Shown here one piece after another: positions 9,129 through 31,140 of a stretch of 64,000 bases of DNA; the stretch's first letter is position 1; the number at the start of each line of letters is the position of its first letter. Both the position numbers and the translations under genes were made by a program. Origin of the DNA: Methylocella silvestris BL2 (GTDB lineage Bacteria; Pseudomonadota; Alphaproteobacteria; Rhizobiales; Beijerinckiaceae); contig NC_011666.1 in NCBI RefSeq assembly GCF_000021745.1, positions 3,561,001 through 3,625,000 on the forward strand, read 5' to 3'. The notes below the pieces were generated by a model that worked only from the letters and a program-made list of their open reading frames with translations, was not told where the DNA came from and did no database searches.

Positions 9129-10070
9129 TCAGCCGTTGAGCAGGAGCGCGACGCCGCAGAGGATCAGGCCTGCGCCCAAAAGCTCCGCCTTGGAGGCGCC
9201 TTCCTTGAAAATCTGGCGGGACACGATGCGGGCGAACACGACCTCGACCAGGCCGAGCGTGCGCACGGGCGCGGCCGACTGGACCGCGAAGGCGACAAAC
9301 CAGAACAACGAAGCGAAGGCGCCGATGAATCCGGCAAAAAGCGATGGGCGCCATTGCGCGGCGATCGCGCGCAGCAACGGGCGGTCGAACAGGATCATCA
9401 GCGCCAAAATCAGCGCCGCTTGAAAGAGAAGGCTGGCCGCCAGCGCGGCGGCGGCGGCGATCAGAAATGTCGGGCCATTAAATTCGAGAATGCCGGCGCG
9501 AAAGCCGATCGCCGAGATCGCGAAGCAGGACGCCGCGCCAAGCCCCAGCGCGATCGCCCGGCCGCCGGCTGTTCGCTCCGGGGCGCCAGGCGCGTGGATC
9601 GTCCGATCCGTCGAGCGCCTTTGGAAGAGTCCCGGCGGCAGCGACAGGATGGCGACGCCTGCGGTCGATAGCAAAATCGCCGTTACGGCGACAAAGCTCA
9701 GCCGTTCGCCGAGAAAGGCGAGGCCGAAGGCCGCGACCTGGAGCGGCTCGGTCTTGGTCAAGGCGATCGTCGCGAAGAAAGAGCGGCTGCGCATGGCGGC
9801 AAGCATCAAGCCGGTCGCCGCGATCTGCGCCAGCGAAGCAGCCGCGATCCACGCCGCGCCCTTAAGCGTCAGCGCGTTGGGCGCCGATCCCGATATGATG
9901 CAAAAGATCTGAAGAAAAAGCGCGCCGAAGGGCGCGCCATAGAGAAAGCGGACCGAGGCGGCGCCGAATGGGCCTGCCGCGCCGACGAGCTCCCGCTGCG
10001 CCGCGTTGCGCGCGGTCTGCGCCGCTGCCGCGATCAGAGTCGCGGGGATCCAGATCCAGGAAAAATTCAC
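9129..10070 (-). CDS. EamA/DMT-family inner-membrane transporter
   Basis: A 313-residue protein with about ten hydrophobic segments in two repeated halves, the layout of the drug/metabolite transporter (DMT, EamA) superfamily. The first half carries FFATIALTKTEPLQVAAFGLAFLGERLSF and the second PVRTLGLVEVVFARIVSRQIFKEG; the TKTEP and E-x-R positions at equivalent places reflect the internal duplication. Substrate is unknown; members export amino acids, purines or sugars. The start is GTG (10068-10070) with no strong ribosome binding site. It is monocistronic, with the small-RNA region upstream. Confidence 0.82.
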   Translation of the reverse strand: MNFSWIWIPATLIAAAAQTARNAAQRELVGAAGPFGAASVRFLYGAPFGALFLQIFCIISGSAPNALTLKGAAWIAAASLAQIAATGLMLAAMRSRSFFATIALTKTEPLQVAAFGLAFLGERLSFVAVTAILLSTAGVAILSLPPGLFQRRSTDRTIHAPGAPERTAGGRAIALGLGAASCFAISAIGFRAGILEFNGPTFLIAAAAALAASLLFQAALILALMILFDRPLLRAIAAQWRPSLFAGFIGAFASLFWFVAFAVQSAAPVRTLGLVEVVFARIVSRQIFKEGASKAELLGAGLILCGVALLLNG

Positions 10071-10385
10071 GCCGCATCAAGAAAAAAGAGGAATGTATTG
10101 CTGCCTCGCGACGTTTTGCGGCGGTCGCCGCCGCGCGGACAATGGACCGAAGCTTCAATCAACTCAAGCTGTTGGCGAGCGTCAACGACGTCGGCGACAG
10201 CCGGGGGTTGCAACCGGGAAAAAAAGGTCGATTTGTCGCAGCAAGTCTTTTCATTCACAAAAAAATGCATTAGCGTAAGAAATACGGAAGGGGATACGGC
10301 GGAGGGGGAAATTTCCTTTACGTCGCCTTTCTAAATGAGCAGGCGCGAACCCACGAGTGAAGAAAAACAGGGGGCGTCGGCCAAC

Positions 10386-10465
10386 AATAAAGAGCCGACG
10401 GCATTGCCAGAAGCGGTCCAAGTCTAGGGGGGAAGCCCAAGAGAGTTTCGCGACAATCCCATTGC
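10386..10465 (-). ncRNA. Decayed third copy of the anti-SD small RNA unit
   Basis: On the minus strand this stretch retains the order of the two intact copies at 10766-10858 and 10982-11073: a TTGGGC element, a C-run replacing TTTCCTCCC, the block CTAGACTTGG, and a CTCTTTATTG tail. The terminator stem is broken by several mismatches, and the upstream -35/-10 pair of the intact copies is not conserved although TTGCTT remains at 10493-10498. It is probably a degenerate paralog and may not be expressed. Confidence 0.4.
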
Positions 10466-10630
10466 CGCGGCTCGTTTAGGGAAGCGCAAGAAAAGCAAAA
10501 AAGCTGAAAGGCGCGGTCAAGCTAGATCCAGGGAATTCGACCATCAGGTTGCGGAGCTGTCCGATCGGAGGGCCGCCATTTTGGTTTTGATCGGGCGCAG
10601 CGCCTTGGTCTGATTGTCTGGACGACTTAT

Positions 10631-10653
10631 GAGGCCGCAGCTCCTGCGGCCTC
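10631..10653. terminator. Perfect 10-bp hairpin, possible terminator
   Basis: GAGGCCGCAG (10631-10640) pairs perfectly with CTGCGGCCTC (10644-10653) around a three-base loop. On the plus strand it is followed by TCGTTATTCC, a modest T-rich tail. No protein gene lies next to it, so it could end an unrecognised small transcript in this gap or be another structured element of the small-RNA region. Confidence 0.4.
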
Positions 10654-10765
10654 TCGTTATTCCGACTGGAGCGCGGCCTCGACGCAGCGTTTCCCACGAG
10701 GCCTGAGAGACGACGCGAAAACGCGCGTCCGGCAGGCGTCATGAAAAGCATGAAGCATCGCCTTA

Positions 10766-10858
10766 AGACTAAAGAGGCCGCTTGCGTTTCCGCAAGCGGC
10801 CCAAGTCTAGGGAGGAAACGCCCAAGGAGGGCATCGGCGACAACAAGCGTTGCCGCAC
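10766..10858 (-). ncRNA. Small RNA, ar14/NfeR1-like, copy 1 (promoter, anti-SD motifs, terminator)
   Basis: Minus-strand small RNA of about 93 nt. Upstream are TTGCTT (10888-10893) and TATATT (10865-10870) separated by 17 bases, so transcription should start near 10858. The transcript has a small hairpin GCCC-TCCTT-GGGC whose loop shows a CCUCCU sequence, a linker with TTTCCTCCC, and a perfect 11-bp GC-rich stem (10776-10786 with 10791-10801) followed by TCTTTAGTCTT, a Rho-independent terminator. CU-rich motifs complementary to ribosome binding sites and the multicopy arrangement are hallmarks of the rhizobial ar14 (NfeR1/Smr14C) family. The family name is inference; the promoter, motifs and terminator are seen in the sequence. 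Confidence 0.68.
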
Positions 10859-10981
10859 TGCAAAAATATACGCGTGCAGCGCACAAAAAGCAAGAGTCGA
10901 AACCTGCGCGGAGTTGGATTGGCAGGGCCGGCGCGGGGTTGGTTTGCAACCCGCCGGACTGCAGGCCAGATGGATCCAGCC

Positions 10982-11073
10982 AAATAAAGAGGCCGCTCGC
11001 GTTTCCGCAAGCGGCCCAAGTCTAGGGAGGAAACGCCCAAGGAGGGCATCGGCGACAACAAGCGTTGTCGCAC
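10982..11073 (-). ncRNA. Small RNA, ar14/NfeR1-like, copy 2
   Basis: Second intact copy about 215 bases from the first. TTGCTT (11103-11108) and CATATT (11080-11085), again 17 bases apart, predict a start near 11073. The hairpin with loop TCCTT (11035-11047), the TTTCCTCCC linker and the terminator stem (10991-11001 with 11006-11016, one mismatch) followed by TCTTTATTTG are all kept. From the -35 box to the tail, copies 1 and 2 differ at only about a dozen positions, most of them upstream of the transcript body, while the DNA between the copies is unrelated. A trans-acting repressor of translation initiation is the likely role. Confidence 0.68.
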
Positions 11074-11345
11074 CGCAATAATATGCACGTGCGACGCACA
11101 AAAAGCAAGTGCCGCTGACCTATTTTGTGACGGCTGCGTCAATTTGATCTAGCTCATTGTTTTAATTTGTATTTTCGTGTCCGTTCCAGATCCCGTCGAT
11201 GGCTGCCGGCTATTCGCCGCTCCAAGACGGTCCTTTCCGTTTGCCCCGCCTGACGTTCTTCCGCTCAGATTCGGCTTTCAGCGTATGATCCGCGCGGCAA
11301 AACTGCGATTTTGCCGAAAACGCGATTCGATAAGAAAGCCTCATT

Positions 11346-12143
11346 ATGACAGCTGTGGATTTTGCCGCGTTCGTCGAGCGTCTCTCCGAGATCGCCTGCG
11401 AAACGATCCTGCCGTTTTTCCGCACCGCGCTCGGAGCCGCCGACAAGAATGTCGGAGGTGCCTTCGACCCGGTGACGGAAGCCGACCATGCCGCCGAAGC
11501 GGCCATGCGGCGCCTGATCATGACGACCTTTCCGAGCCACGGCATCATCGGCGAGGAGTTCGGATCGATCCGCAGCGACGCGGAATTCGTCTGGGTTCTT
11601 GATCCGATCGACGGCACCAAAAGCTTCATTGCCGGGTTGCCGACCTGGGGCAGCCTTATCGGCCTCCTGCACAATGGCGCTCCCACCTACGGCGTGCTCG
11701 TTCAGCCTTTCACGCGGGAGCGATTCATCGGCGATGGCGGCGGCGCGGTCTGGCGCGGTCCGGGGCAGGGCGGCGAGTTGGTCGAGCGCAAGCTGACGAC
11801 GCGCCTTTGCGACAGTTTTGCCGAAGCGACCCTGCTCACCACCTCGCCGCTGCTTTACACGGAGGACAAGCTCGCCGCATTCCGGCGCGTCGAGGCGGTG
11901 GTCAGGCTGTCGCGCTACGGCGGCGATTGCTATGCCTTCGCCATGCTCGCCGCCGGCCATGTCGATTGCGTGATCGAATCGGGTCTCAAGACTTACGATA
12001 TTGCGCCGCTGATTCCGATTATCGAGGGAGCTGGCGGCGTCGTCACCGACTGGGCCGGAGGAAGCGCGGTTCAGGGCGGCGACATCGTCGCGACCGGCTG
12101 CGCCCAGCTGCATGTGCGGGCGCTCAAGCTGCTCGAGGGTTGA
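11346..12143 (+). CDS. hisN: Histidinol-phosphatase of the inositol-monophosphatase family
   Basis: Mg-dependent phosphatase that converts histidinol phosphate to histidinol, the next-to-last part of histidine synthesis. The 265 residues carry the IMPase metal sites: DPVTEADHAAE, IGEEFG near residues 68-73, the signature WVLDPIDGTKSFI (about 82-94) and, near the C-terminus, GLKTYDIAPLIPIIEGAGG. This pattern, with TWGSLIGLLHNG, matches the HisN subfamily of alphaproteobacteria better than SuhB or CysQ. It stands alone, with no other histidine gene in the window. Confidence 0.85.
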   Translation: MTAVDFAAFVERLSEIACETILPFFRTALGAADKNVGGAFDPVTEADHAAEAAMRRLIMTTFPSHGIIGEEFGSIRSDAEFVWVLDPIDGTKSFIAGLPTWGSLIGLLHNGAPTYGVLVQPFTRERFIGDGGGAVWRGPGQGGELVERKLTTRLCDSFAEATLLTTSPLLYTEDKLAAFRRVEAVVRLSRYGGDCYAFAMLAAGHVDCVIESGLKTYDIAPLIPIIEGAGGVVTDWAGGSAVQGGDIVATGCAQLHVRALKLLEG

Positions 12144-30848: not shown

Positions 30849-30913
30849 TTCTGCCGGCGCAATAGCCGGCATCGATCATGGCCGGAGCGCCCCGCCGGCC
30901 AGAACTCGATCGA

Positions 30914-31090
30914 ACGGCAGGTTTCCTGGCTCGCGGATCGGCGCCGCTCGCCGCCTTCCCAGAAGCTTATGGCTTCCAGTGGCTTATGGCGCGCGGCTAC
31001 CCGCTTACAGTTGCGGGGGCAGCTGTGGATTGCGCGCTTTTGGAAAGCGCGCGCCACATTCCCTTTAAACCCTCGGCAGAGGGACCGTTA
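30914..31090 (-). promoter_or_regulatory. Adenosylcobalamin (B12) riboswitch upstream of cobW
   Basis: Read on the minus strand, the conserved cobalamin aptamer blocks appear in order: GGT with hairpin CCCTCTGCCGAGGG, TTTAAAGGGAATGTGG, GCTGCCCCCGCAACTGTAAG, GCCACTGG, TGGGAAGGCGG, and CGAGCCAGGAAACCTGCC (ending near 30916). The B12-box segment matches the consensus closely. It should shut down cobW and the downstream cob genes when adenosylcobalamin is plentiful. The divergent cytochrome and cobO genes lie on the other side and have no aptamer of their own that I could see. Confidence 0.95.
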
Positions 31091-31140
31091 CGGGCGCGAG
31101 AGTAGACCCTGTGGCTGTCGTGTCAATCGCGACGTCAGAC

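Follow-up and report, generated by a model that had tools for sequence, protein, structure and literature searches.

The report that founded the alpha-r8 family described a small RNA encoded on the strand opposite to suhB, equipped with a promoter and a terminator of its own and present in several copies per genome (PMC1273637), and the signature of the family consists of a weak hairpin, the 10-nucleotide sequence UUUCCUCCCU and a Rho-independent terminator (PMC12559287). One member, MmgR of Sinorhizobium meliloti, lowers the amounts of phasin protein and of PHB (PMC8401924), and according to a review mmgR is controlled at a dyad that lies between the −35 and −10 elements (PMC8401924). Another, SisA of Caulobacter crescentus, silences mRNAs through the same 10-mer, as compensatory mutations show (PMC12559287). 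The promoters of the dispersed Caulobacter siblings SisA-D are unrelated to one another (PMC12559287), so that control by PhaR is not universal in the family.

Here we describe two adjacent copies, A and B, found in a 64,000-nucleotide stretch of the genome of Methylocella silvestris BL2 (the window, to which all positions refer unless another source is named). They resemble MmgR in their three hairpins, their alpha-r8 core and a PhaR operator, in our case predicted, between −35 and −10 (PMC12542648, PMC8401924, PMC7143759). They differ from it in that Methylocella has two tandem copies and a diverged third, that the copies are divergent from a suhB-type gene, and that a second PhaR-like site follows 21 bp downstream of the first, whereas a single PhaR site is listed for mmgR. 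With SisA-D they share the 10-mer, the terminator and the weak hairpin (PMC12559287), but A and B are adjacent and have promoter and operators in common; silencing of the anti-Shine-Dalgarno type with Hfq has been shown in Caulobacter (PMC12559287), whereas here it is proposed by analogy. Three points are new: the occurrence of a tandem pair in this lineage, a third copy that has diverged and, as a modestly new promoter detail, the proposed double operator.

The locus and its RNA family

The two units lie in an intergenic region of 1,275 bases (10071-11345), between an EamA-family gene and a suhB-type gene, and form a 130-base direct repeat with 92% identity and an offset of 215 bases. A sequence-only reading of this DNA had described two minus-strand units, and we found all the elements that it listed at their places; its view that they are complete tandem sRNA genes, with the promoter copied along with the transcript, is supported. 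The features are as follows.

9129-10070, minus strand: EamA-family transporter gene, other flank of the intergenic region (PF00892, E 5e-16)
11346-12143, plus strand: suhB-type gene of the inositol monophosphatase (IMPase) family, divergent neighbour (PF00459, E 2.1e-46)
about 11108-10982, minus strand: unit B, whole, proximal to suhB
11103-11108, minus strand: copy B −35, TTGCTT (from the sequence; CTTGC conserved there in relatives)
11080-11085, minus strand: copy B −10, CATATT (from the sequence; CATATTATTG conserved in relatives)
10982-11073, minus strand: copy B predicted transcript, about 92 nt, alpha-r8/MmgR (suhB) sRNA (RF00519, local model R1, fold z −7.07)
11052-11071, minus strand: copy B hairpin SL1, 8 bp (folds, covariation)
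11032-11050, minus strand: copy B hairpin SL2, loop UCCUU (folds)
11024-11033, minus strand: copy B 10-mer UUUCCUCCCU, anti-Shine-Dalgarno linker (from the sequence)
10990-11017, minus strand: copy B terminator stem SL3, 12 bp, followed by a T-rich tail (terminator scan, covariation)
about 10893-10767, minus strand: unit A, whole
10888-10893, minus strand: copy A −35, TTGCTT (from the sequence)
10865-10870, minus strand: copy A −10, TATATT (from the sequence)
10767-10858, minus strand: copy A predicted transcript, about 92 nt, alpha-r8/MmgR (suhB) sRNA (RF00519, R1, fold z −6.20)
10837-10856, minus strand: copy A hairpin SL1 (folds)
10817-10835, minus strand: copy A hairpin SL2 (folds)
10809-10818, minus strand: copy A 10-mer UUUCCUCCCU (from the sequence)
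10775-10802, minus strand: copy A terminator stem SL3
about 10374-10475, minus strand: copy C, diverged third alpha-r8 paralogue (direct-repeat match, R1)

Copies A and B are members of the known RNA family alpha-r8 (MmgR/suhB). The Rfam model RF00519 (suhB/MmgR, alpha-r8) matches copy B with 67.4 bits (11054-10976, E 9.5e-12) and copy A with 61.8 bits (10839-10761, E 2.6e-10), in both cases over model positions 1-77 of 77 and above the gathering cut-off of 41 bits. In the whole genome (4,305,430 bases in a single contig) this cut-off is passed at these two places only, which also shows that the units are not a mobile repeat, and the local model R1 gives them 107.2 bits (B) and 106.3 bits (A). 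Further RF00519 matches in the genome (24.6, 18.5 and 17.6 bits) were dropped because the local model does not find them, and matches to SraC/RyeA and HOTTIP were dismissed as far under their cut-offs. In both copies the 10-mer lies single-stranded between the weak hairpin and the terminator, in the wording used for the family (PMC12559287), and the units are divergent from the IMPase-family gene, which is the layout of the founding report (PMC1273637). Within the window TTTCCTCCCT occurs only at 11033-11024 and 10818-10809, and CTAGACTTGG at the same two places and once more, at 10427-10418. The anti-Shine-Dalgarno motif proposed before is supported, with its place in the linker.

That additional occurrence belongs to copy C, in which CCCCCC replaces CCUCCC and SL2, the −10 and the operators are missing. 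Its homology is shown through the local model only (30.4 bits, E 2.4e-6 with rough calibration): RF00519 has no match there at E≤1, and the full-length match, the 10-mer and SL2 that mark alpha-r8 are absent. It folds little better than shuffled sequences (z = −1.48). Counterparts exist in the related genome G008 (93.4% identical, moderately above the 86.9% of the neighbouring DNA), in M. tundrae and in G014, and TGCGCCGCA is still present upstream of those in M. tundrae and G014. Copy C is probably a paralogue in decay.

The DNA from copy C to the EamA gene includes a 64-base stretch, CTTACGCTAATGCATTTTTTTGTGAATGAAAAGACTTGCTGCGACAAATCGACC (10216-10279, minus strand), that shows strong conservation in G008, in M. 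tundrae and in G014. Stretches related to it occur twice in G009, near the sRNA copies of that genome; a search for a second good copy in the Methylocella genome found none. It is possibly the promoter region of the EamA gene. The earlier statement that nothing other than the sRNA pair explains the protein-free gap was too strong, since both copy C and this element lie there. The intergenic region also contains a near-perfect terminator-like hairpin, GAGGCCGCAGCTCCTGCGGCCTC (10631-10653, plus strand), and elsewhere in the window there is a cobalamin riboswitch (RF00174, 118.8 bits, 30899-31105, minus strand).

Structure and conservation of the tandem copies

Both predicted transcripts fold far better than expected (z = −7.07 for copy B and −6.20 for copy A, with no shuffle folding as well). 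SL2 and the terminator had been described before; the first hairpin, the 8-bp stem GCGACAAC/GUUGUCGC of SL1 at the 5′ end, had been missed. Across 16 units, 99.5% of the cells of the three-helix structure are paired, and none of 500 shuffles reaches the figure for pairing or for covariation. SL1 is paired in 98.4% of its cells and SL3 in 100%, two-sided changes occur in six pairs (three in SL1, three in SL3), the four core pairs of SL2 are invariant, and sliding the pairing partners abolishes the covariation signal. The −35 and −10 elements are 17 bases apart in both copies. A simple sigma-70 scan of the region calls neither promoter, and the case for both promoters consequently stands on conservation and not on a consensus score.

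The nearest named relatives belong to Methylocapsa and Methylocella. Compared with G008, the nearest relative, copy B is 99.3% and copy A 97.8% identical, against 52.5% for the unconserved DNA between them; from copy B to suhB the identity is 77.1%. This contrast implies that the duplication predates the split from G008 and that both copies have been kept since. In a set of 60 related genomes, our own included, RF00519 finds a match at E≤0.001 in 54, and in 48 the score is over the cut-off. Tandem copies, less than 400 bases apart, occur in 11 of the 54 positive genomes (G000, G002, G003, G004, G008, G009, G017, G033, G036, G053 and G058; G017 has three neighbouring copies and both G003 copies are under the cut-off), and also at the IMPase loci L053, L055, L059, L060 and L061. 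Alpha-r8 copies are unusually many in G027 (14 RF00519 matches) and G003 (8 matches), where they are dispersed and have varied upstream regions (loci L155-L160 and L119-L125).

Several other readings of the pair have to be weighed against two functional alpha-r8 genes. The sequence-only reading had assigned the units to ar14/NfeR1, and a tandem of ar14/NfeR1 or ar15/AbcR sRNAs is indeed suggested by their similar CU-rich anti-Shine-Dalgarno motifs and by AbcR1/AbcR2, which are in tandem in S. meliloti (PMC7143759), carry such motifs and are partly suhB-like. This assignment was wrong; the Rfam models refute it, which makes it extremely improbable: a scan of the whole genome at E≤1 with the ar14 model RF02344 and the ar15 model RF02345 gives no match, whereas RF00519 matches both copies end to end and well over its cut-off. 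Moreover, NfeR1 has an anti-Shine-Dalgarno motif in all three loops, whereas each Methylocella copy has a single one, in the linker, with GAAA in the terminator loop and GCUU in the SL1 loop. We give equally little credence to the idea that the element acts in cis on suhB, as a leader or an attenuator, although the local model places it divergently upstream of the IMPase gene at 44 of the 60 named loci examined (a share that describes this set only, the loci having been picked by IMPase similarity). The element is on the opposite strand, reads away from suhB and has its own conserved promoter and terminator, relatives have copies on several further contigs, and the founding paper came to the same view (PMC1273637). 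Somewhat less remote, yet still unlikely, is that one copy alone is expressed, its duplicate being silent and at an early stage of decay. Copy C shows that decay occurs at this locus, and just one of six NfeR1 loci is reliably seen in S. meliloti (PMC7143759); against this, neither A nor B has lost its promoter, operators, core or terminator, and G008 has nearly identical versions of the two while the intervening DNA diverged. Two complete alpha-r8 genes thus remain the preferred reading.

Operator-like sites and a probable connection to PhaR

Each copy carries two palindromic sites in its promoter region, here called O1 and O2, predicted from sequence and without strand.

11090-11101: copy B O1, TTGTGCGTCGCA (reverse complement TGCGACGCACAA), predicted PhaR/AniA site in the −35/−10 spacer
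11069-11077: copy B O2, TGCGGTGCG, predicted, over the predicted transcription start
10875-10886: copy A O1, TTGTGCGCTGCA, predicted PhaR/AniA site
10854-10862: copy A O2, TGCAGTGCG, predicted

In both copies O1 is a TGCRNYGCA palindrome over the core promoter and O2 follows 21 bp downstream. PhaR protects two 12-mers with the consensus TGCRNYGCASMA from DNase I on phaP1 in Bradyrhizobium diazoefficiens (PMC6201568), and O1 of copy B, read as TGCGACGCACAA, is identical to one of the two. O2 of copy B agrees with YGCRNYGCR, the core of the PhaR motif in S. meliloti. In that species the mmgR promoter is bound by PhaR at the corresponding position, and the PhaR shifts of the promoters tested were lost once their palindromes had been changed or removed (PMC12542648).

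These sites are widespread in relatives. Of 65 units, taken from the window and from related genomes, 45 have TGCRNYGCA upstream (shuffles: mean 2.8, maximum 8). Pairs of the looser YGCRNYGCR site are present in 33 units, against a mean of 0.12 and a maximum of 2 in shuffles; they cover 18 of 27 genera, and the spacing is exactly 21 bp in 27 of the 33. At the named loci, whose species partly overlap those of the 65-unit set, the pair is present in 29 of 49 units. The spacer site occurs singly in four units that we checked, from Xaviernesmea (two), Hoeflea and a Hyphomicrobiales genome (L081). O2 covers the predicted start and shares bases with the 5′ arm of SL1, so its conservation may be due in part to the structure of the RNA. 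For the Beijerinckiaceae and many other Hyphomicrobiales we propose a double PhaR operator, with one site in the spacer and one at the start, two helical turns apart, so that a pair of PhaR proteins could lock the promoter until granules remove PhaR; we see this proposal as evenly balanced between being right and being wrong.

The genome contains phaR (TIGR01848, 145.4 bits, cut-off 109.45), four phasin genes and hfq. The pattern TTGTGCRNYGCA occurs 18 times in it, against three occurrences of the reversed pattern, and its sites include both sRNA copies and one phasin promoter, in which related palindromes flank TTGACG on both sides. Among the 60 genomes, suhB matches over the cut-off are present in 46 of 51 with PhaR but in two of nine without (Fisher p 6e-5, an optimistic value, as relatives are not independent). 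These two exceptions, in which PhaR was not found, differ in their sites: G057, with a listed completeness of 100%, has retained the core of the sRNA and has no operator, and G021, a fragmented assembly of 93% completeness, has both loose sites. One further TTGTGCRNYGCA site (L190:1501-1512; G000:C1:1715898-1715909) lies about 450 bases upstream of a gene for a PQQ-dependent alcohol dehydrogenase, the N-terminus of which resembles that of methanol dehydrogenase, and a link between PhaR and methanol oxidation is possible.

The sRNAs could be as we describe them and the spacer palindrome nevertheless serve some regulator that is not PhaR, since the motif is short, other dyad-binding proteins exist and the Methylocella sites are known as sequences. 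We consider this improbable in view of the identity of O1 to a footprinted PhaR 12-mer, the motif on a phasin promoter of the same genome, the co-occurrence of the sRNA with PhaR together with the missing site in one genome that lacks it, and the PhaR binding demonstrated at the matching position of S. meliloti mmgR. PhaR remains our preferred candidate.

A proposed circuit between PHB granules and two small RNAs

Family membership, anatomy, covariation, conservation, operator sequences and the presence of phaR, phasins and hfq are established here, and to these our model adds PhaR repression, Hfq dependence and target silencing by analogy with S. meliloti, Bradyrhizobium and Caulobacter. We hold it to be very probable that A and B are tandem alpha-r8 sRNA genes that PhaR represses and granules release, and whose RNAs mask ribosome-binding sites with the aid of Hfq and so limit phasin and granules. 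PhaR (AniA) would repress each copy by binding O1 in the −35/−10 spacer, and probably also O2 at the start. As PHB granules form, PhaR would be sequestered and both copies would be switched on together. The unpaired 10-mer could then mask purine-rich ribosome-binding sites and reduce the translation of several mRNAs, with the terminator hairpin and its U-rich tail being suited to Hfq binding. Phasin mRNAs are plausible targets, and the RNA would in this way limit phasin production and granule build-up. The predicted duplex of a phasin leader with the sRNA linker (−13.5 kcal/mol) gives no distinctive signal against 40 ORF starts of the window (median −8.3, four of them better), and these energies leave a phasin target neither supported nor excluded. 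Two copies that share core and control would mainly provide a higher dosage.

Through this analysis two genes for regulatory RNAs, from what is likely a facultative methanotroph, are assigned to a known family under a corrected name, and a testable circuit of PHB granules, PhaR, tandem sRNA and target mRNAs is offered; several Hyphomicrobiales are of interest for the production of bioplastic from methane. The double operator, if real, could sense granules with a sharper switch than does the single site listed for S. meliloti mmgR, and would explain the tight tie of alpha-r8 RNA to carbon storage in many Hyphomicrobiales, and in Methylocella this switch would have been duplicated together with the RNA that it controls.
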